Origin: Phycisphaerae bacterium | GTDB lineage: Bacteria; Planctomycetota; Phycisphaerae; JAJVII01 | DNA length: 64,000 nt | NCBI GenBank assembly: GCA_022072085.1 | Contig: JAJVII010000060.1 | Coordinates: 1-64,000, forward strand | Direction: 5' to 3' | Part shown: positions 23,060 through 36,630 of the stretch, in pieces | How the letters are laid out: the number at the start of each line of letters is the position of its first letter | Numbering within the stretch: the first letter of the stretch is position 1 | The notes under the pieces: model-generated | What the model was told of the DNA's origin: nothing | What the model saw: only the letters and a program-made list of their open reading frames with translations | Databases searched by the model: none | Translations under genes and position numbers: made by a program

Positions 23060-26000
23060 ATGGCGACGCCGACCGAAACGTATTACAACATCCGCAAGCT
23101 CAACCGCATCTTCGCGGTGATCGCCCTGGCTGGGCTGGCGTCGATCTGCTGGCTGGTCGCCCGCAACTACACCCAGCCCTGGCGCACTCAGCAGCGCGAC
23201 GCCCAGAGCTGGGACCGCTTCCTGCTGCGGCAGGAGATCGAGCTGCGCCGCAGCGACGCCGATCGCAATATCGCCGAGGCCCAGGACGAGGTCGACCGGG
23301 CCCAGGAAATTCTCGACGACTTCGAAGCCGTTGCAGCCGACCTGACCGCAGCCGAGGTCGAGAAGTTCGCGGGGCTGGGGGACGAATACTATCGCCTCAA
23401 GGACGAGTTGAAGGCCCTCAAGGCCGAGTCCGACGACATCCAGCGTGAGATCGGGTTCGTCAAGGCCAACCGCGACAAGTTCAACCAGGACATCGAGCAG
23501 GCCCGCCAGATGAACCCGGCCGCCGTGCCCGATCTGATCCGGGCCCGCGAACAGAGCGACCGCATGCTGGACGAGTACCTCCGCAAGCAGTACGAGAACA
23601 ACAATCAGATCGCCGAGCACGGCGACGACATCAAGGCCATCGAGGACACGGTCGGCCTGACCGCCGCCCGCAAGAAGCTCTCCGACGCCCAACGCGACTG
23701 GAACGCGCTCAACGAGCAGTTGGCGGCCCTGGACCCCAACCTGAGTTTCGAGCTGCGCAGCGCCCCGCTGATGGACTTCCTCGCCCCCACGCAGGCCCCC
23801 AAGCAGGTCTTCCTGGCCGACATCTACCAGGACCTCGTCTTCGCCAAGGTGCCGACGACCGACCGCTGCATGACCTGCCACGTCAACATCGACAACCCGC
23901 GCTACGAGCGGCCGCAGATGATTGCCGACATGACCTTCTACCTCAGCCGCATCGGCCAGGCCGACCTGCTGTACGAGGTGCAGGATCCGGCGACGTGGGA
24001 CCCGGCCCCGCCGCCGTCGCAGGTCAAGACGCTCCAGCAGTGGTTCTACTATGACCTGCTGTCGGCCTGCCCGCCGGACGCCGGGCCGGACCTCCGCGCG
24101 ATGTGGCAGGAATTGATCGACGAGTCCGTCTTCCAGGGCTACCAGCAGGCGTGGGAGGAGATCGGCCCGCAGTTCGACGAGGCCGCCGCCGGCGCCATCA
24201 TCGCCGCCCTGACGGCCCGCAAGATCGACCCCGAGACCGGCGGCGCCTCCGAGGCCGGCGGCAAGGTCTCCATCTGGTCGGCCAAGGACCGCCTGGCTGT
24301 CGGCCAGTCGCTGGCGTCCAAGGGCGACGCGCTCCAGTCATGGACTTGGCTGGTGCAGACGGCGGTGCAGCACGGTTTCGCGCAGGCCGTCCCGTCCGTG
24401 TTGCGCGGCGTACGCTACACGCAGGACCAGCGCGACCGCTTCGCCCGGCTGCTCTATGAAATGCAGGTGCTGGACTACGACGTCGCCCCGCCGACCGGCA
24501 TTCCCGCGGGCGTCGCACCCGAGCAGGCCTACCTGATGACGCTGCTGGAGAGCGTGAACAAGCAGCGCAAGATCGACAAGCTGGACCCGCTGGACTGGAG
24601 CAACGCCCTGCTGGCCCACCCGCACCTGGAGCAGTATGTCGGGCCGGACTCGCCCCACCCGCTCAACAGCATGGGCTGCACGGTCTGCCACGAGGGCAGC
24701 GGCGGCGACCTCGACTTCACCCTATCGGCCCACACGCCCGACTCGTCGCTTCAGCGGGCCGTCTGGTCGAGCAAGGACTGGTCTGAGGTCGGCGAAAAGC
24801 TGGGTTACCTCGACCCGGCGGCCCGCGACCGGCAGGTCCGCGTCGCGAAGCTGAACGGGTGGCAGCCGCACGACTGGGAGGTCAACCATTTCTGGGACCG
24901 CCCGATGCTCCCGGCGACCTACGTGCAGGCCGCCTGCGCCAAGTGCCACACCGGCATCTACGACATCCAGTCGGCGGCCCCGCGGCTGGCTGAGGGGCGC
25001 AAGCTCTTCAGCGAAATCGGCTGCGCGAACTGCCACGCCGTGAGCGGCCTGGAGAACGACAGCCGCCGCGTCGGTCCAGACCTGGCCCACATCGCCGAGA
25101 AGACGACCCCCGAGTGGACCGCGGACTGGATTCGCGACCCGCGCGGCTTCCGGCCCTCCACGCGGATGCCGCACTTCTTCCGCCGGCCCAACAACAGCGA
25201 CCCCGACAACCTCTGGCGGACCGAGATCGAGATCGACTCTGTCGCCGACTACCTGTTCGACCGCTCGATGCCGTCGCAGAGCGAGAAGCCGCCGGCCGGC
25301 CTGGCCGGCGACGCCAGGCACGGCCGCGACCTGTTCAACAGCGTCGGCTGCCTGGCCTGCCACAGCAACCTGGCCGACAACGGCGGCGAGTGGATTGCCC
25401 AGGCGATGGTCGATCGCAAACACGGCTACGTCCCGCCGGCCGACGACGCCCAGCGCGACGCCTGGCAGCAAGCCGTCGACGCCGACTACGCCAAGGCCAA
25501 GGCCCAGGCCGCCGCCATGAGCTACGACCAGCAGGTCGCCTGGATGCTCAGCAATACGCCCGAGCGGACCAGCCGATTCGCCCCCGAGCTGTCGCGCGTC
25601 GGGATGAAGACCACCGCCGCCTGGCTCTACGGCTGGCTGCGCGATCCGAAGCATTACAGTTCGACGACGAAGATGCCGAGCCTTCGGCTGGGCCAGCAGG
25701 AGGCGATGGACCTGGCGACGTACCTGGCGGGCCTCAAGCTCGACCCGCAGGAATACGCCCAGTCGGTCAGCGACAAGCTGGCGGCGGCGTATCTGGAAAA
25801 ACGCCACCCGACCGCCCATGTCGAGTCGCTGGACATGAACAAGCTGTTGGCGACGGCCGGCCGGCAGCGGCTGGCGGCCCTGGCCGACCAGCTCAAGAGC
25901 GACCAGCCGCCGACGCCGACCGAGATCAAGTACGCCCTGATGGACGAGATCGACCGCGTCGTGGTCGAGCTGCTGGCGTCCAAGAGTTCCAAGCCGGTAG

Positions 26001-27811
26001 CCATCGACGAGCAGGTCTGGACGCTTCCGAACCTGGAGGACTGGGACGCGCTGCTGCACCCCGAGGAGGGCCCGGCCGTTGACCTGTCCAAAGCCACCGT
26101 CGAGAGTCTCCGCCAGAAGGTGCGCGAGCTGTCGGCCGAGGACGGCGAGAACGCGGGCCTGGTCGAGTCGCAGCGGCTCAACGCCCTGCGACGCGCCCTG
26201 GTGGAGGAACTCGTTCCCTACTGGGCCGCCGAGAACGCCCCGGCTGCCCGCCGAAAGGCCCAGGCCGACCTGATGGACCGCTTCAAGGTCCAGCCCGACG
26301 ACAAGCAGGTTCGCTACACGCCGGGTCTGCTGACGGGATACCGCCGCCAGACACGGCAGGCCGAGCGGCTGTTCGTCGGCGTCAAGGCGATCAACAACTA
26401 CGGCTGCTTCGGCTGCCACAACGTGCCGGGCTTCGAGGCGGCGACGCGGATCGGCACAGACCTGAGCGACTGGGGCGACAAGAACCTGCACAAGGTGGAC
26501 TTCGCGTATTTCGACCCGGTCTACGAGGGACGCGTGCCGTCGGCCATGCTCGCCCCGGGCACGGACGAGCAGTATCAGCCCGCCTGGTCGCGCATCGACG
26601 ACCCGCCGCAGCGGGTGCGGCACGAGAAACTGGACTGGCTGTTCTGGAAACTGCACTCCCCGCGGATGTGGGACCGCGGCAAGTCGGCCAAGGGCCCGTA
26701 CGAACTGCTCAAGATGCCGCAGTTTGGCCTGACGCGCGACGAGATCGAGGCGATCCAGACGTTCATCATCAGCCGCCGCGATCCGCTGGTCGCCCCCAGC
26801 CTCCAGCAGACGGGGTCGCCGGAGATTCCGCGCGGCCGACAGCTCGTGCGGACGTTCAACTGCATCGCCTGCCACCGCGTGGATGACAACATGCCGCTGG
26901 TGGCGCACACGTTCCGGTTCAACCAGGACCAGCCGCTGCCGTTCCGCTTCTGGATCGACCGGCTGAGCACGCAGGCGCCGCCGCTGCTGATCGGCGAAGG
27001 GGCCAAAGTCCAGCCGCAGTGGCTGGTGGGCTTCTTCGGCGACGTGATCCCGTTGCGTCCAGCGTTGAAGATCCGCATGCCGAGCTTCAACCTGACCCCG
27101 CAGGAGAAGAGCGACCTGGCGCAGTTCTTCCGGGCGACCGTGGACAAGGCCCACCGTGAGCTGGCCGCCGTCGTGCTGGACAAGGACGGCAACCCGGTCC
27201 GCGAACTGACGCCGGCGGACCTGGCGAAAGTGCGTCGCATCTTCAACGTGTCGGACAACCAACTCCCATCGGCGGACCTGCTGGACGGCCCGGCGGCTAG
27301 GCTGGTCCGCGGCACGCTGCCCAAGGTGAGCGATGCTCAGTTCATGACCGCGATGGCGCTGTACTACTGGAGCCTCTACGGCGGCGTGGGCGTGGACAAG
27401 CCCTACGACGTTTCGATGCCGGCGAACCCCGACATCGACCGCAAGGCCACCGAGGAACTGCTGGCCAGCGCCTGCCTGAACTGCCACGCGTTTTCGGGGC
27501 TCCAGAGCGGCGGCGGATTTCGCGCCCCGCCGCTGTCGCTGGCCCGCGAGCGTCTGCGGCGAAACTGGGTTGAGCAGTTCATCGTCGATGCCCCGGCGGC
27601 CATGCCCGGCAGCGGCGTCTACCCGCGCGTGGTGATGCCGATTCCGCCGTTCGCCCAGCCCGGCCTGGACGAGATGAGCACGCCCGCGCCGCTCCATCAC
27701 GCGATCCGGCCGGGCACGCCGGAATACAAGGACTATCGCCAGTTGATGGACTTCCTCTACCTCGAACATCCGCTGGCGCCGTCGCCGACGACCCAGCCGT
27801 CGGGCCCCTGA
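23060..27811 (+). CDS. Giant eight-haem c-type cytochrome with coiled coil
   Basis: 1583 residues. An N-terminal membrane anchor (about residues 16-36, IFAVIALAGLASICWLVA) is followed by a coiled coil to about residue 235 rich in Glu/Lys/Gln/Asp. Eight CxxCH sites start at residues 270, 540, 626, 655, 764, 1116, 1268 and 1472. The 626-764 trio resembles repeated class I cytochrome c domains (GRKLFSEIGCANCH, GRDLFNSVGCLACH, GRQLVRTFNCIACH), each with a downstream Met-Pro ligand motif such as TRMPHFFR, TKMPSLRL or IRMPSFNL. It lies 21 bases after the split cytochrome b and probably replaces cytochrome c1 as the electron exit. Nothing of this size occurs in standard bc complexes. Confidence 0.9.
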   Translation: MATPTETYYNIRKLNRIFAVIALAGLASICWLVARNYTQPWRTQQRDAQSWDRFLLRQEIELRRSDADRNIAEAQDEVDRAQEILDDFEAVAADLTAAEVEKFAGLGDEYYRLKDELKALKAESDDIQREIGFVKANRDKFNQDIEQARQMNPAAVPDLIRAREQSDRMLDEYLRKQYENNNQIAEHGDDIKAIEDTVGLTAARKKLSDAQRDWNALNEQLAALDPNLSFELRSAPLMDFLAPTQAPKQVFLADIYQDLVFAKVPTTDRCMTCHVNIDNPRYERPQMIADMTFYLSRIGQADLLYEVQDPATWDPAPPPSQVKTLQQWFYYDLLSACPPDAGPDLRAMWQELIDESVFQGYQQAWEEIGPQFDEAAAGAIIAALTARKIDPETGGASEAGGKVSIWSAKDRLAVGQSLASKGDALQSWTWLVQTAVQHGFAQAVPSVLRGVRYTQDQRDRFARLLYEMQVLDYDVAPPTGIPAGVAPEQAYLMTLLESVNKQRKIDKLDPLDWSNALLAHPHLEQYVGPDSPHPLNSMGCTVCHEGSGGDLDFTLSAHTPDSSLQRAVWSSKDWSEVGEKLGYLDPAARDRQVRVAKLNGWQPHDWEVNHFWDRPMLPATYVQAACAKCHTGIYDIQSAAPRLAEGRKLFSEIGCANCHAVSGLENDSRRVGPDLAHIAEKTTPEWTADWIRDPRGFRPSTRMPHFFRRPNNSDPDNLWRTEIEIDSVADYLFDRSMPSQSEKPPAGLAGDARHGRDLFNSVGCLACHSNLADNGGEWIAQAMVDRKHGYVPPADDAQRDAWQQAVDADYAKAKAQAAAMSYDQQVAWMLSNTPERTSRFAPELSRVGMKTTAAWLYGWLRDPKHYSSTTKMPSLRLGQQEAMDLATYLAGLKLDPQEYAQSVSDKLAAAYLEKRHPTAHVESLDMNKLLATAGRQRLAALADQLKSDQPPTPTEIKYALMDEIDRVVVELLASKSSKPVAIDEQVWTLPNLEDWDALLHPEEGPAVDLSKATVESLRQKVRELSAEDGENAGLVESQRLNALRRALVEELVPYWAAENAPAARRKAQADLMDRFKVQPDDKQVRYTPGLLTGYRRQTRQAERLFVGVKAINNYGCFGCHNVPGFEAATRIGTDLSDWGDKNLHKVDFAYFDPVYEGRVPSAMLAPGTDEQYQPAWSRIDDPPQRVRHEKLDWLFWKLHSPRMWDRGKSAKGPYELLKMPQFGLTRDEIEAIQTFIISRRDPLVAPSLQQTGSPEIPRGRQLVRTFNCIACHRVDDNMPLVAHTFRFNQDQPLPFRFWIDRLSTQAPPLLIGEGAKVQPQWLVGFFGDVIPLRPALKIRMPSFNLTPQEKSDLAQFFRATVDKAHRELAAVVLDKDGNPVRELTPADLAKVRRIFNVSDNQLPSADLLDGPAARLVRGTLPKVSDAQFMTAMALYYWSLYGGVGVDKPYDVSMPANPDIDRKATEELLASACLNCHAFSGLQSGGGFRAPPLSLARERLRRNWVEQFIVDAPAAMPGSGVYPRVVMPIPPFAQPGLDEMSTPAPLHHAIRPGTPEYKDYRQLMDFLYLEHPLAPSPTTQPSGP

Positions 27812-27850: not shown

Positions 27851-27951
27851 TCGAGGTGCGACGGGAGCCGCGAAGGCGCGGCCGGACGGAACGATTGAGA
27901 TCACGTTGCAGGACCGGCTGGCCATGCAACAGGGATGACGGGAGGTTGACG

Positions 27952-28986
27952 ATGAAGCGCAGTCTGACGATTTCGCTGATGGTGCTGTTGATGGCCGCCC
28001 CCGCAGACCTGCTGCTGAGCGGCTGCGGTGGCGGAGACGAGCAGAAGAAGCCGACCAGTGGCAAGCGGCCGACCCGCGGCGCGCGTCGCACGGGCGGCGG
28101 GGCGCCCAACGTGCCCCCGCCGGTGAACGTCGGCGTCAATACGGGTGGGTCGTCCGGCGGCGTGATGGGCCCGGGCGAGACGGCTGACTACACGCCGGGC
28201 AAGGTGGACAACGGCGGCTCGCTGACCGTGCAGGTGAACTGGACCGGCGACGCCAAGGCGATGAGCGAGCTGAAGGACTTCCCGACCAAGGGCGTGAACG
28301 CCGACGTCTGCAAGTGCGCGGAACCGGGGGTCGGGCCCAACATGATCCAGAACAACCGGCTGGTCATCAACGCGGACAAGAGCGTGCAGGGCACGCTGGT
28401 CTACCTGTCGGACATCACGGCGGGCAAGGATTGGGCATCCGACTGGCAGCCCCCGCTGGTCGACCAGAAGGGCTGCGAGTATTACCCGCTGATCAGCATT
28501 GCCCGCCAGGGCAAGCCGGTGAACGTTCGCAGCGACGACCCGACGCAGCACACGGTCATGTTCATCCCCTACGGCAAGGACGACTCGGCGGCTGTGGACA
28601 ACCTGAACTTCGACGCCAAGAGCGAAGGGAAGATTCAGCAGGAGAACAAGTTGACGCCGGGGCTGTACGAGCTCAAGTGCCAGGCGGGCCACACCTGGAT
28701 GGATGCCTACATCATGATGAGCCGCAACCCTTACGTCGGCGTGACCGACGCGAAGGGGCAGGTGACCTTCACCGACGTGCCGGCGGGGACCTATACGCTG
28801 GTCGTGATGCACCCGAACTGGAACTTCACGACGCTCCCGCAGGACAAGGGCGCCGACTCGTTCATCTTCCCCAAGATGATGCAGGTCGAGCAGTCCGTCG
28901 AGGTCAAGGCCGGCGCCGCCGCGACGACCGTGGCCGTCGAGATGGACGAGGCCGGGCTGTCGGCCAAGATGGCCTCGGCGCAGTGA
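27952..28986 (+). CDS. Cupredoxin-like lipoprotein with C-terminal beta domain
   Basis: 344 residues; ATG at 27952 with GGAGG at 27941. The lipobox LLLSGC puts the lipidated Cys at residue 25. A Gly/Pro/Arg linker leads to a domain with copper-type ligands: His200 in QHTVMF, then Cys243-x3-His247-x2-Met250 (KCQAGHTWM), as in plastocyanin-like proteins but with a short His-Met spacing. The C-terminal part (GVTDAKGQVTFTDVPAGTYTLVVMHP) is a carboxypeptidase-regulatory-like beta domain. Just upstream of ccoN, it could donate electrons or copper to the oxidase. Metal binding is inferred. Confidence 0.82.
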   Translation: MKRSLTISLMVLLMAAPADLLLSGCGGGDEQKKPTSGKRPTRGARRTGGGAPNVPPPVNVGVNTGGSSGGVMGPGETADYTPGKVDNGGSLTVQVNWTGDAKAMSELKDFPTKGVNADVCKCAEPGVGPNMIQNNRLVINADKSVQGTLVYLSDITAGKDWASDWQPPLVDQKGCEYYPLISIARQGKPVNVRSDDPTQHTVMFIPYGKDDSAAVDNLNFDAKSEGKIQQENKLTPGLYELKCQAGHTWMDAYIMMSRNPYVGVTDAKGQVTFTDVPAGTYTLVVMHPNWNFTTLPQDKGADSFIFPKMMQVEQSVEVKAGAAATTVAVEMDEAGLSAKMASAQ

Positions 28987-29071: not shown

Positions 29072-30661
29072 TTGAGCACCGCCGCATCCGCAGCCGCCGG
29101 GTCGCCGCCGGCAGACGAGCCGGCCGTCCCGGCTGTCCGCGCCGATGAACTGGTCGACTACCGCCTGGTGAAGGCGTTCATCATCGCCAGTTGCGTCTGG
29201 CTGTTCCTGGCGCCGGTCGCCGGCTTTCTGTTCGCCGTCAAGTTCAGCGTGCCGCACTTCCTGAACCTGGCGACATGGACCTCCGGTCCGCTGATCCGCC
29301 AGTTCCACGTCAACGGCGTGATCTTCGGCTGGTTCACCTCCGCGACCATCGGGCTGAGCTACTACATCTGTCCCAAGCTGTGCGGCCGCCCGATCTGGTC
29401 GGTGCGCCTGGGCTGGTGGAGCTTCTGGATCTACAGCCTCGCGTTCCTGGCCGGCGAAATCTGCATCCTGGCTCAATACACGCAGGGCATCGAACTGGGT
29501 GAGTTCCCGCTGCCGGTGGACATCTTCTTCGCGCTGGGCTTCGTCACGGTGACGATCAACCTGTTGATGACGATCCTGACGCGGCGCGAGAAGCAGATTT
29601 ACGTCGCCTTGTGGTACCTGATGGCGGCTTACATCTGGACCTGCCTGAACTGGTGCGTGGGCAACTTCCTGCTGCCGTACGCGGCCGCGGGCCCCAACTC
29701 GGCGGCCCTGCACGGGTTCTACCTGCACAACCTGGTCGGCCTGTGGATCACGCCGTCGGGCTTGGCGATCATCTACTATTTCCTGCCCCCGGCCGCCAAG
29801 AACCCGCTGTTCAGCCACAAGCTCTCCATCCTGGGCTTCTGGTCGCTGGCGTTCTTCTACCCGTTCAACGGGACGCACCACTACATCTTCTCGCCGATCG
29901 ACGCCTGGGTGCAGACCATCGCGATCGTTGCGTCGATGTTCCTGTTCATCCCGGTCTGGGCCGTCTGTGCGAACTTCTTCGGCACGCTCCGCGGGCACTG
30001 GGCGCTGCTGCCGCGCTCCGGCGTGCTCAAGTTCCTCATCATGGGCGCCGTCTTCTACCTCATCGGCTGTGCCCAGGGGCCCATCGAGGCCCTGCGGACG
30101 GTGCAGGCCTGGACGCACTTTTCGGACTTCGTCATCGGCCACAGCCACGTGACCATCTTCGGCACGTTCACCTTCTGGGCATGGGCGGGCATCTACTTCG
30201 TCTGGCCGCGGATGAGCGGGCGGCAGATCTGGTCGTCCGCGCTGGTCGGGCTGCACTTCTGGCTGGCGACGCTCGGGTTCACGCTGATGTTCCTGGCGCT
30301 GACGATCAGCGGCTTCGTGCAGAACGCCATGCTGCACGGCGGGACCTTCTACGTCGACTCGATCGTGCCGCTGAAGATCTGGTGGCTGCTGCGGAGCGTC
30401 GGCGGCGGGGCCATGGTCCTGAGCATGTGGGTCTTCATGTTCAACATCTACATGACCAGCCGCCACGGCAAGCCGCTGGTTGACGCCGTCGGCTATCGCG
30501 ACTACATGCCCGCGGCAACCGAGCGGTACAGCCGGCCCTGGGAACGCCCGCAGGCGGCACCCCAGCGACTGCGCGAGCAATATGACCGCCCGATCCCGGT
30601 CGCCTTGGACGGCGGACAAGGCGAGGACGGCAACGGCGACGGCAACGGAGAACGCGGCTGA
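29072..30661 (+). CDS. ccoN: cbb3-type cytochrome c oxidase subunit I
   Basis: 529 residues from a TTG at 29072 (GGGAGGAG just upstream). Twelve or more membrane helices. Haem and copper ligands: His79 (QFHVNG, low-spin haem b), His219 (YLHNLVGLW, CuB), His269-His270 (THHYIF, CuB) and His357/His359 (GHSHVT, the haem pair). The catalytic centre reduces oxygen to water at low oxygen tension and pumps protons. The last codons overlap the ccoO start (TGATG at 30659-30663). The C-terminal 50 residues are polar and Gly/Asp-rich. Confidence 0.95.
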   Translation: MSTAASAAAGSPPADEPAVPAVRADELVDYRLVKAFIIASCVWLFLAPVAGFLFAVKFSVPHFLNLATWTSGPLIRQFHVNGVIFGWFTSATIGLSYYICPKLCGRPIWSVRLGWWSFWIYSLAFLAGEICILAQYTQGIELGEFPLPVDIFFALGFVTVTINLLMTILTRREKQIYVALWYLMAAYIWTCLNWCVGNFLLPYAAAGPNSAALHGFYLHNLVGLWITPSGLAIIYYFLPPAAKNPLFSHKLSILGFWSLAFFYPFNGTHHYIFSPIDAWVQTIAIVASMFLFIPVWAVCANFFGTLRGHWALLPRSGVLKFLIMGAVFYLIGCAQGPIEALRTVQAWTHFSDFVIGHSHVTIFGTFTFWAWAGIYFVWPRMSGRQIWSSALVGLHFWLATLGFTLMFLALTISGFVQNAMLHGGTFYVDSIVPLKIWWLLRSVGGGAMVLSMWVFMFNIYMTSRHGKPLVDAVGYRDYMPAATERYSRPWERPQAAPQRLREQYDRPIPVALDGGQGEDGNGDGNGERG

Positions 30662-33048
30662 TGGACAAGGCGAATCTCTACATCATCGTGGCCGGGGTGC
30701 TCCTGTTTGCCCTGGCGTTCTCCGTGATCGGCGCCATCCCCTGGATTCTCGACCACCAGGTCCGCACGCACACGGTGACGCTGGCCACTGGACCCAAGGC
30801 CGGCCAGACCTGGACGGTTCCCGACCCGTACCACATCGAGGGCACGCGGCAGCTCACCGTGCTGGGCGAAGCCAAGGACTACTACCAGGTCCAGATCTGC
30901 TACCAGTGCCACAGCCAGTTCGTCCGACCGCTGGCCCACGAGGTCGATCTCTACGGCCCGCCCAGCCAGGCCGGCGAGTCGAGCTGGGATACCCCGATGC
31001 TCTTCGGCACCAAGCGGACCGGGCCTGATCTGGCCCGCGAGGGCGGCGCCCACACCGACGACTGGCACCTGGCCCACTTCTTCGACCCAGAGTCGGTCGT
31101 GCCCGAGTCGGTCATGCAGCCGTATGACCGCCACTTCGGCTTCGCCAAGGGCGGCGGGCCGATGCCCGACTTTACCGACGAGGACCGCCAGATCGCCGAC
31201 GCCTACCTCAACCCGCCGCCGCTCGACCGCAAGGCGTCAGCCGCCCAGCGACAGCAGGCCCAGGTGGACGCCAGGCGGGCCGCCGACGATTTCGGCGCCC
31301 TGCTCAAGGCCTTCATGGGTCCCGGCGACGACGCGGACAACCCCCAGGGCCTGGCGGCCGCCGACAACACCGACCCGCAGGAGCAGCCCTGGCAGTGGCG
31401 CGACCGCTGGGTCCGCGCGGCCCTGTTCCTTTTCGACCAGGACGGGAACAATCGCCTGGACGACAAGGAGAAGAGCCTCTTCGTCAACGCTGGTCTGCCA
31501 GCCCAGTGGGGCCAACTCATCCAATACCTCGATTACGACGGCGACAAGATCGTCACGCTCTCGGATGCCAGACCGACGCCCGACGCCGACATCGAGAAGC
31601 TCGTCCACTATCTCCAGTATCTCGGCACGACCATCGGCGACTGGCGCGAGCAGGCCTACACCGGTCATCCGATCCGACCGGCCGCCGACCCGGTGGTCCG
31701 GCTCCAGCGCGAGATCATCGATCTGGACCGGACGATCCGCTCAGCCGACCTGGCCAGGCGGCTGGACGAGCTGAAGAGCCGATACGCCGGCCTCATCGAA
31801 CTGACCGAGGCCCAGTGGGCCGACGCGGCCGCGGTGAAGAGCGCCCTGACAGCCTGCCGCTACGACCTGATCGCCACGCAGCTCGTGCCGCTGTGGAAGA
31901 GCGACCGCGGGCAGCGCGTCTACGACAACAAGTGCGTCGGCTGCCACGGCGAGCAGGGCGACGGTTCGGGGCCGTCGGCGATGTTCCTCGGCCGCGGGCT
32001 GAACCCCTACCGCTACACCCGCTACGGCGACTACGAGCAGCAGCTCGACCAGCGCTGGGCCCGCTCGGCGTTCGAATATGGCCTGGACGAGAAGAACGAC
32101 CGTCCAGCCAAGCTCGAGCCGGTGGACGAGGAGACGTTCAACAACGAACTCGAACCGCGACTGTTCGGCGACTATCTCGAGATGCCGCGCGACTTCACGC
32201 AGGGCTTCTACAAGTTCGAGTCGCGGCCGAAGTCCGGCGTGAAGGACCAGGTGCCGACCGACGAGGACCTGTTCGCGACGATCAGCCGCGGCGTCAACGG
32301 GTCGGCCATGCCCGCCTGGAACCGCCTGCCCGAGCAGGACCGCTGGGCGGTGGTGGACTACGTCAAGGCCTTCTCGCTCAAGCCGGTCGAGGGTGCCTAC
32401 TCCGGCCCCGGCCCCGACGACGAGTGGAACACCGGCGACGACGTGCCGGCTGTCGACAGCCCGTTCCTCCAGTCGGCCAGGCAGACCCCGCAGATCGACA
32501 TCCCCGAGCCGCCCGGCGACGTGGACGGCGACAGCCAGGTTTGGCGGGGCCGCTTTATCTTCATGTCCGTCGGATGCCGCCAGTGCCACGGCGCCGACGG
32601 GCAGGCCGAGGACTACATCGACCGCGAAGCCTGGACCGGCCGAAGCATCCAGGCCCGCAACTTCGCCAAGGCCCCGCTGCTCAAGGGCGGAAGCGAGCCG
32701 CAGGACATCTTCCGCACGCTGCGCACGGGCATCAACGGCACGCCGATGCCGGCCTACAGCGCCGACAAGTTCCTCTTCGCCGGGGGCCCGCAGGCGGCGG
32801 CGGAGGACTACAAGGACAAGTCGGCCGAGGTCGTCGACGGCCAACGCGTCTTTGCGGACGACGAACTGGTCCCGATGCGCGACTGGCTGGCCGCCCAGCC
32901 GACCGCCGACCAGCTCAAGGCCATGACCGACGCCCAGCGCGACGCCGTCGCCCGCGAGCGGACCTACGCCCTGGTCGCCTACGTCCGCTGGCTCATGCGG
33001 ACGCACGGCGACGTGAAGTTCCCCCAGGGCGTCCCGCCGAAACGATGA
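30661..33048 (+). CDS. ccoO: CcoO fused to EF-hand loops and two cytochrome c domains
   Basis: 795 residues, versus about 200 for plain CcoO. Order: N-terminal membrane helix (LYIIVAGVLLFALAFSVIGAIPWIL); CcoO domain with CYQCH at 80-84 and the family signature SQFVRPL; two EF-hand calcium loops at 259-270 (DQDGNNRLDDKE) and 291-302 (DYDGDKIVTLSD), both with Asp at 1 and 3, Asn/Asp at 5 and an acid at 12; cytochrome c domain with CVGCH (425-429) and methionine-type MPAWNRLP; second c domain with CRQCH (639-643) and MPAYS. It appears to combine CcoO with the dihaem part of CcoP. No other ccoP gene is nearby. Confidence 0.92.
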   Translation: MDKANLYIIVAGVLLFALAFSVIGAIPWILDHQVRTHTVTLATGPKAGQTWTVPDPYHIEGTRQLTVLGEAKDYYQVQICYQCHSQFVRPLAHEVDLYGPPSQAGESSWDTPMLFGTKRTGPDLAREGGAHTDDWHLAHFFDPESVVPESVMQPYDRHFGFAKGGGPMPDFTDEDRQIADAYLNPPPLDRKASAAQRQQAQVDARRAADDFGALLKAFMGPGDDADNPQGLAAADNTDPQEQPWQWRDRWVRAALFLFDQDGNNRLDDKEKSLFVNAGLPAQWGQLIQYLDYDGDKIVTLSDARPTPDADIEKLVHYLQYLGTTIGDWREQAYTGHPIRPAADPVVRLQREIIDLDRTIRSADLARRLDELKSRYAGLIELTEAQWADAAAVKSALTACRYDLIATQLVPLWKSDRGQRVYDNKCVGCHGEQGDGSGPSAMFLGRGLNPYRYTRYGDYEQQLDQRWARSAFEYGLDEKNDRPAKLEPVDEETFNNELEPRLFGDYLEMPRDFTQGFYKFESRPKSGVKDQVPTDEDLFATISRGVNGSAMPAWNRLPEQDRWAVVDYVKAFSLKPVEGAYSGPGPDDEWNTGDDVPAVDSPFLQSARQTPQIDIPEPPGDVDGDSQVWRGRFIFMSVGCRQCHGADGQAEDYIDREAWTGRSIQARNFAKAPLLKGGSEPQDIFRTLRTGINGTPMPAYSADKFLFAGGPQAAAEDYKDKSAEVVDGQRVFADDELVPMRDWLAAQPTADQLKAMTDAQRDAVARERTYALVAYVRWLMRTHGDVKFPQGVPPKR

Positions 33049-33076: not shown

Positions 33077-33913
33077 ATGCCGCACGCCGTGGGTTACATC
33101 GCGTTCTTCGCCGCCAACCTCGTGCTGAGCTGGCACTGCGTGGGCATGTGCGGGCCGTTCGTGCTGGCTGTCGCCGGCGCGGACCGCTGGCATGGCCTGT
33201 CGCGGCAGATCGCCTACCACGCCGGCAAGACGACGACCTACCTCATGCTCGGCCTGGGCGCCGGACTGCTCAGCCAGGCCATCGCCCGCAGCTCGAGGCT
33301 GACCTTCGCCCAGGATCTGCTTTCGTGGATCGCCGGCGGCTTCCTGCTGCTGATCGCGCTGCACCTGATGGGCCTGTTCCGCTGGTCGCCGCCGCTGGAT
33401 CGCTTCCTGTCCGGCCAGCGATGGGCGTCGGTCTGCGGACGTTTCCGACCGTCGAACTCGCACTCGGGGGCGCTGGCGATGGGCCTGCTCAACGGCTTCA
33501 TGCCGTGCCCGCTGGTGATGGGGGCGTTGGCGGCGGCGGCGTCGGCCGGCTCGCTGCTGGGCGGGCTGGGCTACATGGTCGCCCTGTCGCTGGCGACCGT
33601 GCCGGCGCTGACGATCCTGGCGATGGGCGGAGCGTGGATCCGGGCCGCCCTGGGACGACGCGGCGTGCGGCTGGCCGGCGGGCTCATGCTCGTGCTTGCC
33701 GCCGTGGCGATCCTTCGCCCGTCCCCCTGGCTGCACGCGGCGATGGGCCATCACCACAAGAACCACGAGGGCATGACGGGGATGAACCACGACGGCCACA
33801 TGGATCACGAGGGCCACATGGATCACGAGGGCCACATGAACATGGACCCGGCCGCCGGCGGGCACGACTGCTGCACGCCCATGCCCGCGCCCGCGACCCA
33901 GCCCGACGACTGA
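33077..33913 (+). CDS. TauE/DsbD_2-type membrane protein with His/Met copper tail
   Basis: 278 residues, about six membrane helices. The N-terminal SWHCVGMCGPF and mid-protein NGFMPCPLVMGAL are the paired motifs of the sulfite exporter/DsbD_2 family often found beside ccoI in oxidase clusters. The C-terminus (residues 223-257) is packed with His and Met (GHHHKNH, MNHDGH and repeated MDHEGH), followed by HDCCTP: a likely copper-binding tail. It probably handles copper for assembly of the oxidase. Sulfite transport is unlikely here given the context. Confidence 0.85.
   Translation: MPHAVGYIAFFAANLVLSWHCVGMCGPFVLAVAGADRWHGLSRQIAYHAGKTTTYLMLGLGAGLLSQAIARSSRLTFAQDLLSWIAGGFLLLIALHLMGLFRWSPPLDRFLSGQRWASVCGRFRPSNSHSGALAMGLLNGFMPCPLVMGALAAAASAGSLLGGLGYMVALSLATVPALTILAMGGAWIRAALGRRGVRLAGGLMLVLAAVAILRPSPWLHAAMGHHHKNHEGMTGMNHDGHMDHEGHMDHEGHMNMDPAAGGHDCCTPMPAPATQPDD
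33800..33835 (+). repeat. Two 18-bp tandem repeats encoding MDHEGH
   Basis: Identical units ATGGATCACGAGGGCCAC at 33800-33817 and 33818-33835, preceded by a diverged unit. They lengthen the metal-binding tail of the TauE-like protein and could vary in number between strains. Confidence 0.9.
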
Positions 33914-33934: not shown

Positions 33935-36076
33935 ATGCCGCCACGGACACTCACCGGCGAATCGCACTCCGCCGCCGGGTTCTGCGCCCACTGCAACACA
34001 CCCGTGCGGCGCGGCCTGTTCTTCCGGCCCGTTCAGCGCGGCGACGACCTGTTCTGCTGCTACGGCTGCGCGGTCGCGTCGCTGATCGTCGGCCAGACCG
34101 GCGAAGGCGGCCGGGCGTCGTGGCTGCTGGCGCGGTTCGCCTTCGGCGTCTTCCTGGCGATGAACGTCATGCTTTTCTCCGCGCTGCTCTACTGGCCCGA
34201 GGCATCGGGCCTGCCGCGGGAATACGTCCCGGCGATCCGCAAACTCGTCTTCGGCCTGGCGACGCCCGCGATGGTCGTGCTGGTCTGGCCCTTCGTCCGC
34301 AACACCGTCGCCCAACTCCGCCGCGGCAGGGCGGGCATGGACAGCCTGATCGCCGTCGGCTCGCTGGCGGCCTACGGCTACTCGACCTGGTCGGTCTTCG
34401 GCGGCGGCGGGCAGATTTACTTCGAGACCGCCACCATGCTGCTCGTGCTGGTGACCCTCGGCAAGTTCCTGGAGGCCTCCGCGCGGGCCCGCACCGCCGA
34501 CGCGATCGAGCGGTTGACCAGCCGAACGGCCTCGGTGGCCCATCGCCTCGACGCCGCGGGCCAGCCGCAGGACATCGCCCCGGCCGACCTCTCGCCCGGC
34601 GACCGCATCCGCGTGCTGGTCGGCGAGTGCCTGCCGGCGGACGGGCGACTCGTCGCCGGCGCGACTGAACTGGACGAGTCGATCCTGACCGGCGAGTCGC
34701 GGCCGGTGTCCGCCGAGGTCGGCCGACTCGTCCTAGCCGGCTCGACGAACCTGGGCGCGCCGGTCGAAGTCGAAGTGACCACGGTCGGCGCCGACACCGT
34801 CGCCCGGCAGATCGAGCGGATGATGGACATCGCCCGGGCCAGCCGACCGGCCATCGCCCGGCTGACCGACCGCATCACCGAGTGGTTCACCCCCGCGGTG
34901 GTCGTGACCGCGACCGCGGGCGGGGCGTGGTGGTGGGTCCACGCCGACCCGGTCAGCGCCCTGCGGGTCTGGCTGGCGGTGCTGGTCGTTGCCTGCCCCT
35001 GCGCGCTGGGCATCGCGATCCCCGTCGCCGGCAGCGTCGCGCTGGGCTGGGCGGCTGCTCGCGGCCTGCTGGTGCGTTCCATCGAGTTGTTCGAGGGGAT
35101 CGGACGCGTCCGTACCGCCTGCTTCGACAAGACCGGCACGCTGACGCGCGGCTGCGTGTCGCTGACGGCGACGCAGGTCTTCGCGGGCAGCCCGGCGAAC
35201 GGAGCCGAGGCCCGGGCCCTGGCCGCGGCCGTCGAGGCCCATTCCGAGCACCCCTTGGCCCGCGCCTTCTCCTCCGGCGATGTGGCGCAGCCGCCCCCGG
35301 CTGCGCGCTGCGACTTCCGCGTCGCTGACGTGCAGGTCATTCGCGGCGGCGGCCTTGCCGCCCGCGAGACCGCCCGCGGCTGGGACCTGCTGCTGGGCAG
35401 CCGATCGATGCTGTCGGCCCGCGGCGTGGCGACCGACGCCGTCGTGGGGCAGGGCGGCGACGAGGGCATCGAGGTCCTGCTGGCGATTGACGGGGCGCTG
35501 TCTGCGAGGTTCCTGCTGGCCGACGAGCCGCGGCCGGAGTCGGCGGCCGCCGTCGCGTCGCTTCGGGCTGCGGGCGTGAATGTGGTCCTGCTCAGCGGCG
35601 ACCGCACGGGCGTCTGCCGGTCGCTGGCCGGGCGCGTCGGCATCGACGAGGTCCACGGCGACCTTCCGCCCGGCGGCAAGCTGGCCGAGATGGAACGCAT
35701 CCGCGCGGCAGGCGGCGGGCCTATCGCGATGATCGGCGACGGCATCAACGACGCGCCGGCGCTCGGCGGGGCGGACCTGGCGATCGCGGTCAACTCGGCC
35801 CGCGACCTGCTGCGGCTGAACGCCGACGTCTGCCTGGTCAGCGAGGATCTTCGACTGGTCCCGGCGCTGGTGCGGCTGGGCCGGAGGACGCGTCGGGTCA
35901 TGCGAGAGAATCTCGCGTGGGCGTTTGCCTACAACATCGCGGCGATTCCGGTGGCGTTGAGCGGCTGGCTGCACCCGTTGGTGGCGGCCGGGGCGATGGT
36001 GCTCTCCAGCCTGATGGTGGTGGCCAACTCGATGCGACTGGCCCGGAGTTCGCACCGCGGGGCGGAAGGCCTATAA
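33935..36076 (+). CDS. ccoI: Copper-exporting P1B-type ATPase for oxidase assembly
   Basis: 713 residues. The N-terminus has Cys17-x2-Cys20 (CAHC) and CCYGC (FCCYGCAVA), the Cys-rich metal-binding module typical of CcoI/FixI-type pumps. Core motifs: LTGES, the channel CPCALG (354-359), the phosphorylated Asp398 in DKTGTLT, HSEHPLA, and MIGDGINDAPAL. Position between the TauE-like protein and ccoS supports delivery of copper to the cbb3 oxidase rather than general detoxification. Confidence 0.94.
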   Translation: MPPRTLTGESHSAAGFCAHCNTPVRRGLFFRPVQRGDDLFCCYGCAVASLIVGQTGEGGRASWLLARFAFGVFLAMNVMLFSALLYWPEASGLPREYVPAIRKLVFGLATPAMVVLVWPFVRNTVAQLRRGRAGMDSLIAVGSLAAYGYSTWSVFGGGGQIYFETATMLLVLVTLGKFLEASARARTADAIERLTSRTASVAHRLDAAGQPQDIAPADLSPGDRIRVLVGECLPADGRLVAGATELDESILTGESRPVSAEVGRLVLAGSTNLGAPVEVEVTTVGADTVARQIERMMDIARASRPAIARLTDRITEWFTPAVVVTATAGGAWWWVHADPVSALRVWLAVLVVACPCALGIAIPVAGSVALGWAAARGLLVRSIELFEGIGRVRTACFDKTGTLTRGCVSLTATQVFAGSPANGAEARALAAAVEAHSEHPLARAFSSGDVAQPPPAARCDFRVADVQVIRGGGLAARETARGWDLLLGSRSMLSARGVATDAVVGQGGDEGIEVLLAIDGALSARFLLADEPRPESAAAVASLRAAGVNVVLLSGDRTGVCRSLAGRVGIDEVHGDLPPGGKLAEMERIRAAGGGPIAMIGDGINDAPALGGADLAIAVNSARDLLRLNADVCLVSEDLRLVPALVRLGRRTRRVMRENLAWAFAYNIAAIPVALSGWLHPLVAAGAMVLSSLMVVANSMRLARSSHRGAEGL

Positions 36077-36098: not shown

Positions 36099-36311
36099 AT
36101 GCTCGGCGTCGGCGGAGCGACAATCACGGTCATCCTGTTTACCGCGGCGGTGCTGATGGGGCTGGCGGCGTGGTGCTTCTTCCTGCTGGCTACCCGCGGC
36201 GGGCAGATGAGGAACCTGAACGAGGTGGCCAATCGCCAACTTCAACTCGAGGATTTCGAGACGACCGACGACTACGAGAAAGGCAGCGGAGGATCGAATG
36301 GCCGACAGTGA
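36099..36311 (+). CDS. ccoS: cbb3 oxidase assembly protein CcoS
   Basis: 70 residues, ATG at 36099, 22 bases after ccoI. One membrane helix (ITVILFTAAVLMGLAAWCFFLLA) is followed by TRGGQMRNLNEVANRQLQLED, which matches the CcoS/FixS pattern (AxWxFFWAVRSGQFDDLDTPA-x-RIL-x-DD). The C-terminal extension (TTDDYEKGSGGSNGRQ) is longer than usual. The last 14 bases overlap the next gene. Confidence 0.85.
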   Translation: MLGVGGATITVILFTAAVLMGLAAWCFFLLATRGGQMRNLNEVANRQLQLEDFETTDDYEKGSGGSNGRQ

Positions 36312-36630
36312 CGCGAAAGACCAGGCGGCGGGCGAAGCGGCTGCGGATCGGCCACAGGGCGAACCGGCGGCCAATGCGTCGGCCGAGGCGGCTGCAGCGG
36401 CCACGGAGCCCGAGCAGAGCCGGCGCGACGAGCAGCACAACTACTACTACGCGACCGCTGAGATCACCGAGCGCAGCGGCATCTTCCCCAAGTGGATGAT
36501 GGCCGTCGTCGCGTTCTTCGTCATCTTCGCGGTCGTCTACGTCATGCGATACTGGCACGGCGCCAATGACATCGAGCCCCCGCGCGTGCAGCATTCCCAG
36601 CAGGCGCCGGCGTCTGAGAGCGGACAATAG
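36298..36630 (+). CDS. Small membrane protein resembling the CcoP N-terminal anchor
   Basis: 110 residues, start overlapping ccoS by 14 bases. The first 45 residues are Ala/Glu/Asp-rich and likely disordered. Then YYYATAEITERSGIFPKWMMAVVAFFVIFAVVYVMRYW resembles the N-terminus of CcoP (DGIxExNNPLPxWW, a helix, GYLxxYP), but no haem motif follows. Because two haem domains are fused to CcoO here, this gene may be the detached CcoP anchor. That is a structural inference from a short segment; it could also be an unrelated single-helix subunit. Confidence 0.65.
   Translation: MADSDAKDQAAGEAAADRPQGEPAANASAEAAAAATEPEQSRRDEQHNYYYATAEITERSGIFPKWMMAVVAFFVIFAVVYVMRYWHGANDIEPPRVQHSQQAPASESGQ

Follow-up and report, generated by a model that had tools for sequence, protein, structure and literature searches.

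The window analysed here is a stretch of 64,000 nucleotides from a Phycisphaerae bacterium (GCA_022072085.1, contig JAJVII010000060.1, positions 1 to 64,000). Its gene at 30661-33048 on the forward strand encodes CcoO, the subunit II through which electrons enter a cbb3-type oxidase, an enzyme that reduces oxygen with high affinity. This CcoO has two extra haem c domains, and its own cytochrome c domain is interrupted by an insertion that carries two EF-hand-type loops. We suggest, as the reading that on balance seems probable, that in this cbb3 oxidase a dihaem wire is built into CcoO itself, together with an EF insert that would be stabilised by Ca2+ and have a probably structural role. The gene had been pointed out by a first-pass annotation of the window.

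A CcoO with three haem sites and an internal insertion

The frame runs through 795 codons without interruption, its ATG sharing one base with the stop codon of the upstream CcoN gene. Pfam FixO matches residues 59-156 (1.5e-35; 123.1 bits against a curated cut-off of 29.6), Cytochrom_C and Cytochrome_CBB3 match in the C-terminal half, and CXXCH motifs are found at positions 80, 425 and 639. Residues C80, C83, H84 and M152 are invariant in the aligned CcoO proteins and relatives, and all three CXXCH sites with their Met ligands are invariant in relatives. The protein is a CcoO with two added haem c domains, as the first-pass annotation had stated. The NCBIfam model NF011054 (putative bifunctional CcoO/cytochrome c) scores 137 bits on it, below the cut-off of 447. 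The parts of the gene, with AlphaFold2 (AF2) models and their predicted local distance difference test (pLDDT) where used, are as follows.

30661..33048, + strand: ccoO-type gene, 795 aa (trihaem CcoO with an internal EF-hand-like insertion and a C-terminal dihaem module)
30664..30759, + strand: N-terminal membrane helix, residues 2-33 (AF2, block pLDDT 79-94)
30835..31128, + strand: CcoO (FixO) core, residues 59-156 (Pfam FixO), with haem motif CYQCH 80-84 and ligand Met152
31129..31584, + strand: insertion within the cytochrome c domain of CcoO, residues 157-308, placed after Met152 and before the conserved helix 309-323
31435..31470, + strand: EF-type loop 1, DQDGNNRLDDKE, residues 259-270, preceded by helix 243-257
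31531..31566, + strand: EF-type loop 2, DYDGDKIVTLSD, residues 291-302, with D295 and D302 invariant in relatives
31585..31629, + strand: CcoO C-terminal helix, residues 309-323, containing LVHYLQYLG (314-322), with Y317 and G322 invariant and pLDDT about 86 in 311-320
31648..31872, + strand: predicted helical linker between CcoO and the dihaem module, residues 330-404 (AF2 model)
31873..33045, + strand: dihaem c module, residues 405-795, CVGCH 425 with Met550 and CRQCH 639 with Met696, similar to 6h5l_B (Kuenenia)

An acidic, low-confidence stretch, GPGPDDEWNTGDDVPAVDS (residues 574-605, window about 32380-32480), lies between haem domains 2 and 3.

The position of the loops is given by the motif LVHYLQYLG. 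Its residues Y317 and G322 are invariant in an alignment of 15 CcoO-type proteins, among them one-haem CcoO of the usual size (about 200-235 aa), and the motif marks the helix with which the cytochrome c domain of CcoO ends. Both loops stand between Met152 and this helix and therefore belong to an insertion inside CcoO. The first-pass annotation had taken them for a calcium-binding linker between CcoO and the dihaem part, and a linker following CcoO was rejected since the C-terminal helix is downstream of the loops. In the relative L059, a single Pfam FixO match crosses the insertion (residues 29-279, FixO 16-218). Among 76 CcoO frames from the fetched loci, the distance from the Met ligand to the helix is 20-70 residues in most, and the 162 residues of the window protein are the longest. 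Only 6 of the 76 exceed 100 residues; the same six frames, and no others, have an EF loop between the Met ligand and the helix, and being related to one another they are not independent events.

The EF-type loops in the window protein and in its relatives

The two loops, whose coordinates had been given exactly by the first-pass annotation, each fit 12 of 12 loop positions of an EF-hand pattern modelled on PROSITE PS00018, with liganding residues at positions 1, 3, 5, 9 and 12 in both. The hydrophobic 13th position of the pattern is unmet in both. A chance motif was rejected: when the composition of the protein was shuffled 100,000 times, a loop pair 20-60 residues apart appeared in only 2 shuffles, and among the window's frames of 100 aa or longer (289 frames, 75,467 residues) no other one has even a single EF-type loop.

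The insertion is also present in another planctomycete family, f75 (genomes G170, G213, G249, G238, G292, G226, G138 and G199). Its loop 1 reads D-x-[DN]-G-[DN]-G-[RIV]-[VIL]-[SA] and follows a helix-like stretch that is alike in both groups (VREALSLL-DTNGDG in f75, VRAALFLF-DQDGNN in the window), while the weaker loop 2 reads x-x-x-G-D-[GA]-[IVL]-[VL]-[ST]-x-x-D and stands directly before the C-terminal helix. Residues 294-341 of the window protein are 46-50% identical to the f75 proteins, and nine EF-type sequences all have D295 and D302. The insertion is homologous across the two lineages and occupies the same site in both. MAFFT alignments of the window protein with its relatives misplace loop 1, because a long extra stretch precedes this loop in the window protein and separates the two loops in the relatives, and a loop-anchored comparison was used instead. 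A profile built from ten loop-1 segments with their preceding helices matched PDB calmodulins with values of 1e-11 to 1e-13 when their repeats are summed; this profile is partly circular, its segments having been selected around the loop, and the match nevertheless takes in the preceding helix.

A profile of EF-type CcoO found matches at 1e-10 or better in 161 of 392 planctomycete genomes. Among the matches listed, only those of the window's genome and of f75 cover the whole insertion and reach the C-terminal helix; the rest end near the Met loop or shortly after. The loops are thus shared with homologues, and the family evidence supports EF-hands.

Other proteins with such loops were found without a CcoN match nearby. 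In genome G452, of the same class, the locus L154 encodes a 584-aa dihaem protein with two good loops, DSNGDGRYDLRD and DRNKDGILTPND, and with a dihaem part 45% identical to that of the window protein. It appears to have lost the CcoO haem, the N-terminal region being CcoO-like without CXXCH (L154:1120-2871 and L232:9970-11721, both on the reverse strand). A cupredoxin/CarboxypepD_reg-like gene follows this type of gene, an Rrf2 regulator is on the other side, and no CcoN is present on its 12.4 kb contig. No second genome with an L154-type protein was found within the family of G452 at 1e-30. In f75 (genus g144), the loci L229, L230 and L231 (genomes G226, G292 and G238) contain EF-type CcoO/dihaem copies with diverged haem surroundings and no CcoN match nearby, as if independent of the oxidase.

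Several observations weigh against functional EF-hands. The Pfam EF-hand models remain below their curated cut-off on the isolated segment (E 0.004-0.02, best 17.3 against 25 bits) and throughout the relatives, and because of these scores the window sequence alone is no proof of an EF-hand domain, the family evidence being stronger. The usual Gly at position 6 is replaced by Asn in loop 1 and by Lys in loop 2. The first-pass annotation had made its reading depend on acidic positions in homologues, and these were found only in part: in loop 1 the relatives retain acidic residues or Asn at positions 1, 3 and 5, while most of them have no acidic residue at position 12; in loop 2 they retain positions 5 and 12, while most have no Asp at positions 1 and 3. 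Moreover, 63-76 residues separate the loops in all homologues but one, against 32 in the window protein, so the loops of the relatives may not form a paired EF lobe.

With a 27-row alignment, AF2 gave the full protein a mean pLDDT of 67, and the C-terminal helix 309-323 was well predicted. Helices at 243-257, 268-276, 282-289 and 300-303 were placed around the loops with a pLDDT of about 42. The isolated segment 238-330, modelled without an alignment (pLDDT 71 in one model, 41-45 in four), gave no EF-like match, matching only homeodomain-like three-helix bundles with Z of 3.1 or less. No calmodulin-type chain was among its structural matches, which, considering the low model quality, was not counted against EF-hands. 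The structure prediction proposed by the first-pass annotation gave no confirmation of an EF fold and no ground to dismiss it, with helices flanking the loops in the full model, at low confidence, and no EF match for the segment.

We suggest that in the window protein and a few relatives the helical insertion, whose EF-type loop pair follows the Met-ligand loop and precedes the C-terminal helix, would most likely bind one or two periplasmic Ca2+. The bound ions would act as a structural brace that folds the insert onto CcoO and keeps the dihaem arm in position. The main competing explanation, in our judgement unlikely to be the right one, is that the window loops bind no Ca2+ and are EF- or dockerin-like remnants, in a loop open to insertions, used as a protein docking surface, e.g. 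for the electron donor. The residues at position 6, the weak Pfam scores and the relatives' loop 2 without Asp at positions 1 and 3 agree with a docking surface, as do a weak dockerin match in L154 and the variable length of canonical CcoO at this same place; the fit of both window loops to all 12 positions and the invariance of D295 and D302 speak against it. A reversible switch, in which Ca2+ would shift the position of the dihaem arm with respect to the haem of CcoO and thereby tune the oxidase to external calcium, seems to us distinctly improbable. The insertion does adjoin the Met-ligand loop and precede the helix leading to the dihaem arm, and loop 1 has the full set of liganding side chains. 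However, no calcium-linked gene was recognised among the operon genes, the loop sequences vary widely among the relatives, no positive support for reversible regulation was found, and the Ca2+ level of the periplasm normally suffices to keep sites of this kind occupied. That Ca2+ on an EF pair in the CcoO cytochrome c domain gates the flow from the attached dihaem arm, making respiration responsive to calcium, we hold to be slightly more doubtful still.

The dihaem module, the operon and the descent of CcoN

For the dihaem module, the best match among solved sequences is 6h5l_B (3.7e-22), while CcoP chains reach only E 0.68-0.97. The same chain was found by Foldseek (E 1.1e-8, template modelling score 0.80 on the target), the N-terminal part matching CcoO chains. 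This protein belongs to the Kuenenia pair in which kustc0458 is described as the HAO and kustc0457 as its redox partner (PMC11897245). The NCBIfam ccoP model (TIGR00782) gives 1.8e-9 on the window protein, with 37.3 bits against a cut-off of 179.95, and with these scores an assignment of the dihaem part to CcoP by sequence was rejected. No FixP_N membrane anchor was found by Pfam in the window CcoO chain, nor was the FixP_N domain detected in the source genome at E 0.001. Similar dihaem proteins are encoded as separate genes in many planctomycetes.

The first-pass annotation had derived this part from CcoP, and its complete proposal, a calcium-binding linker that connects CcoO with the dihaem part of CcoP, now appears very improbable. 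A dihaem part that follows CcoO would do the job of CcoP, and the weak ccoP match points the same way, but the loops upstream of the C-terminal helix, the closer homology to 6h5l_B and the separate genes of the same type are all against it.

The gene is part of an operon that is conserved in Planctomycetota and has the following members.

23060..27811, + strand: giant multihaem c cytochrome, 1583 aa, about eight haem motifs, upstream in the operon
27856..28986, + strand: lipoprotein with a carboxypeptidase-regulatory-like and a probable cupredoxin-like part, upstream of CcoN
29072..30661, + strand: CcoN, catalytic subunit of the cbb3 oxidase, TTG start (Pfam COX1 9.2e-77, NCBIfam ccoN 1.1e-78)
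33077..33913, + strand: membrane protein of the DsbD_2 family, from the cbb3 assembly cluster (Pfam 3.5e-37; syntenic)
33935..36076, + strand: CcoI-type copper P-type ATPase (profile matches; syntenic)
36099..36311, + strand: FixS/CcoS-like small protein (Pfam FixS E 0.0016, below cut-off)
36298..36630, + strand: stand-alone protein similar to the CcoP membrane anchor (FixP_N), 110 aa, at the operon end (Pfam FixP_N 4.6e-4, below cut-off)

The overlap of CcoN with the ccoO-type gene and the DsbD_2, CcoI and FixS-like genes downstream agree with the adjacency seen in cbb3 clusters. The order of octahaem giant, cupredoxin-like lipoprotein, CcoN, trihaem CcoO, DsbD_2, CcoI and FixP_N-like protein is the same in G170, where the syntenic homologue of the 110-aa protein exceeds the Pfam cut-off (7.9e-7), and is partly kept in G213, G249, G125 and G311. 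It looks as if the role of CcoP were split, with the anchor as a separate peptide and the haems fused to CcoO.

In the CcoN tree, the window sequence falls within a 12-row clade (support 95/93) in which all neighbouring CcoO are trihaem fusions and which also takes in Candidatus Scalindua, f75, part of f41 and two metagenome-assembled genomes from other phyla. A second CcoN clade consists of shorter trihaem fusions, and because of this separation the fusion label needs at least two changes on the tree. Since the tree does not place the window and f75 as sisters, the EF insert may have been gained once and then lost in some lines, or it may have been transferred. A chimaeric assembly or an annotation artefact fusing unrelated genes is scarcely credible: the source genome is a draft of 72 contigs and no second full-length copy with exactly the same spacing was found, but the frame is single and open, guanine-cytosine content is similar across all parts, gene order and fusion type recur in other genomes, and the relatives share the insertion site.

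Some neighbouring observations concern the oxidase genes more widely. The 1583-aa cytochrome, conserved upstream of trihaem-CcoO operons, has a coiled-coil N-terminal part and two FixO-like stretches. The source genome (G000) contains three further COX1-family oxidase genes (contigs C66, C36 and C62), and 30661-33048 is its only clear FixO gene outside the multihaem cytochrome. In a WOR-3 metagenome-assembled genome, L122:5977-7515 (+) encodes a CcoO-type protein with four CXXCH motifs.

In the canonical enzyme, the electrons of CcoP pass via cp2 and cp1 to the CcoO haem and then to CcoN (PMC7876108). In the window protein, considering the haem count and the fusion, the dihaem module probably does the work of CcoP as a relay to the CcoO haem. 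We infer an electron path here, just as we infer Ca2+ binding and a structural rather than regulatory role for the loops. In this cbb3-type lineage, found mostly in Planctomycetota, CcoO itself would bear the two relay haems that CcoP bears in the textbook enzyme. A donor in the periplasm, for which the cupredoxin-like lipoprotein and the octahaem cytochrome of the same operon are plausible candidates, would deliver electrons to the dihaem arm; from its two haems they would reach the haem of CcoO (Cys80/Cys83/His84/Met152) and finally CcoN.

Significance and comparison with known systems

The electron-entry side of cbb3 oxidases is more variable than the textbook CcoNOP scheme. The dihaem wire of CcoO apparently replaces CcoP, being recruited from a different dihaem cytochrome family, and one sub-branch has the EF-hand-type insert within the CcoO cytochrome domain. 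If the loops bind calcium, CcoO would have a Ca2+ site whose effect on electron transfer is accessible on a single polypeptide. In the openly licensed papers searched we found no description of EF-hands in CcoO and nothing on point for CcoO fusions in planctomycetes; a trihaem CcoO with an EF insert is apparently undescribed.

Among known proteins, the CcoO/FixO subunits of cbb3 oxidases (8smr_F, 6xkw_o, 3mk7_B) have in common with the window protein the membrane helix, the CXXCH, the Met ligand and the C-terminal YLQxLG helix, and they also sit beside CcoN and CcoI. They differ in having about 200-240 aa and one haem, without the EF pair and without the dihaem tail. NF011054 likewise describes CcoO fused to an extra cytochrome c, although its model length is 294 aa against the 795 aa of the window protein. 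The trihaem CcoO proteins of Candidatus Scalindua sediminis (L079) and of other planctomycetes (L074, L092) combine CcoO with a dihaem module beside a CcoN of the same clade, but have no EF loops at the insertion site. The dihaem chain 6h5l_B of the Kuenenia Kustc0457/Kustc0458 complex is the nearest solved sequence and fold to the C-terminal module, whereas in its own organism it serves an HAO-like enzyme as a separate redox partner and belongs to no oxidase. CcoP (TIGR00782) has two His/Met haem c domains, as has the window module, that would feed CcoO; its sequence similarity is marginal, and the window dihaem part has no membrane anchor, an anchor-like FixP_N peptide being encoded separately. 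Calmodulin-type EF-hands have the 12-residue ligand pattern and the preceding hydrophobic helix in common with the window loops, which differ from them by Asn and Lys at position 6, with a pairing and fold that are putative in the window protein.

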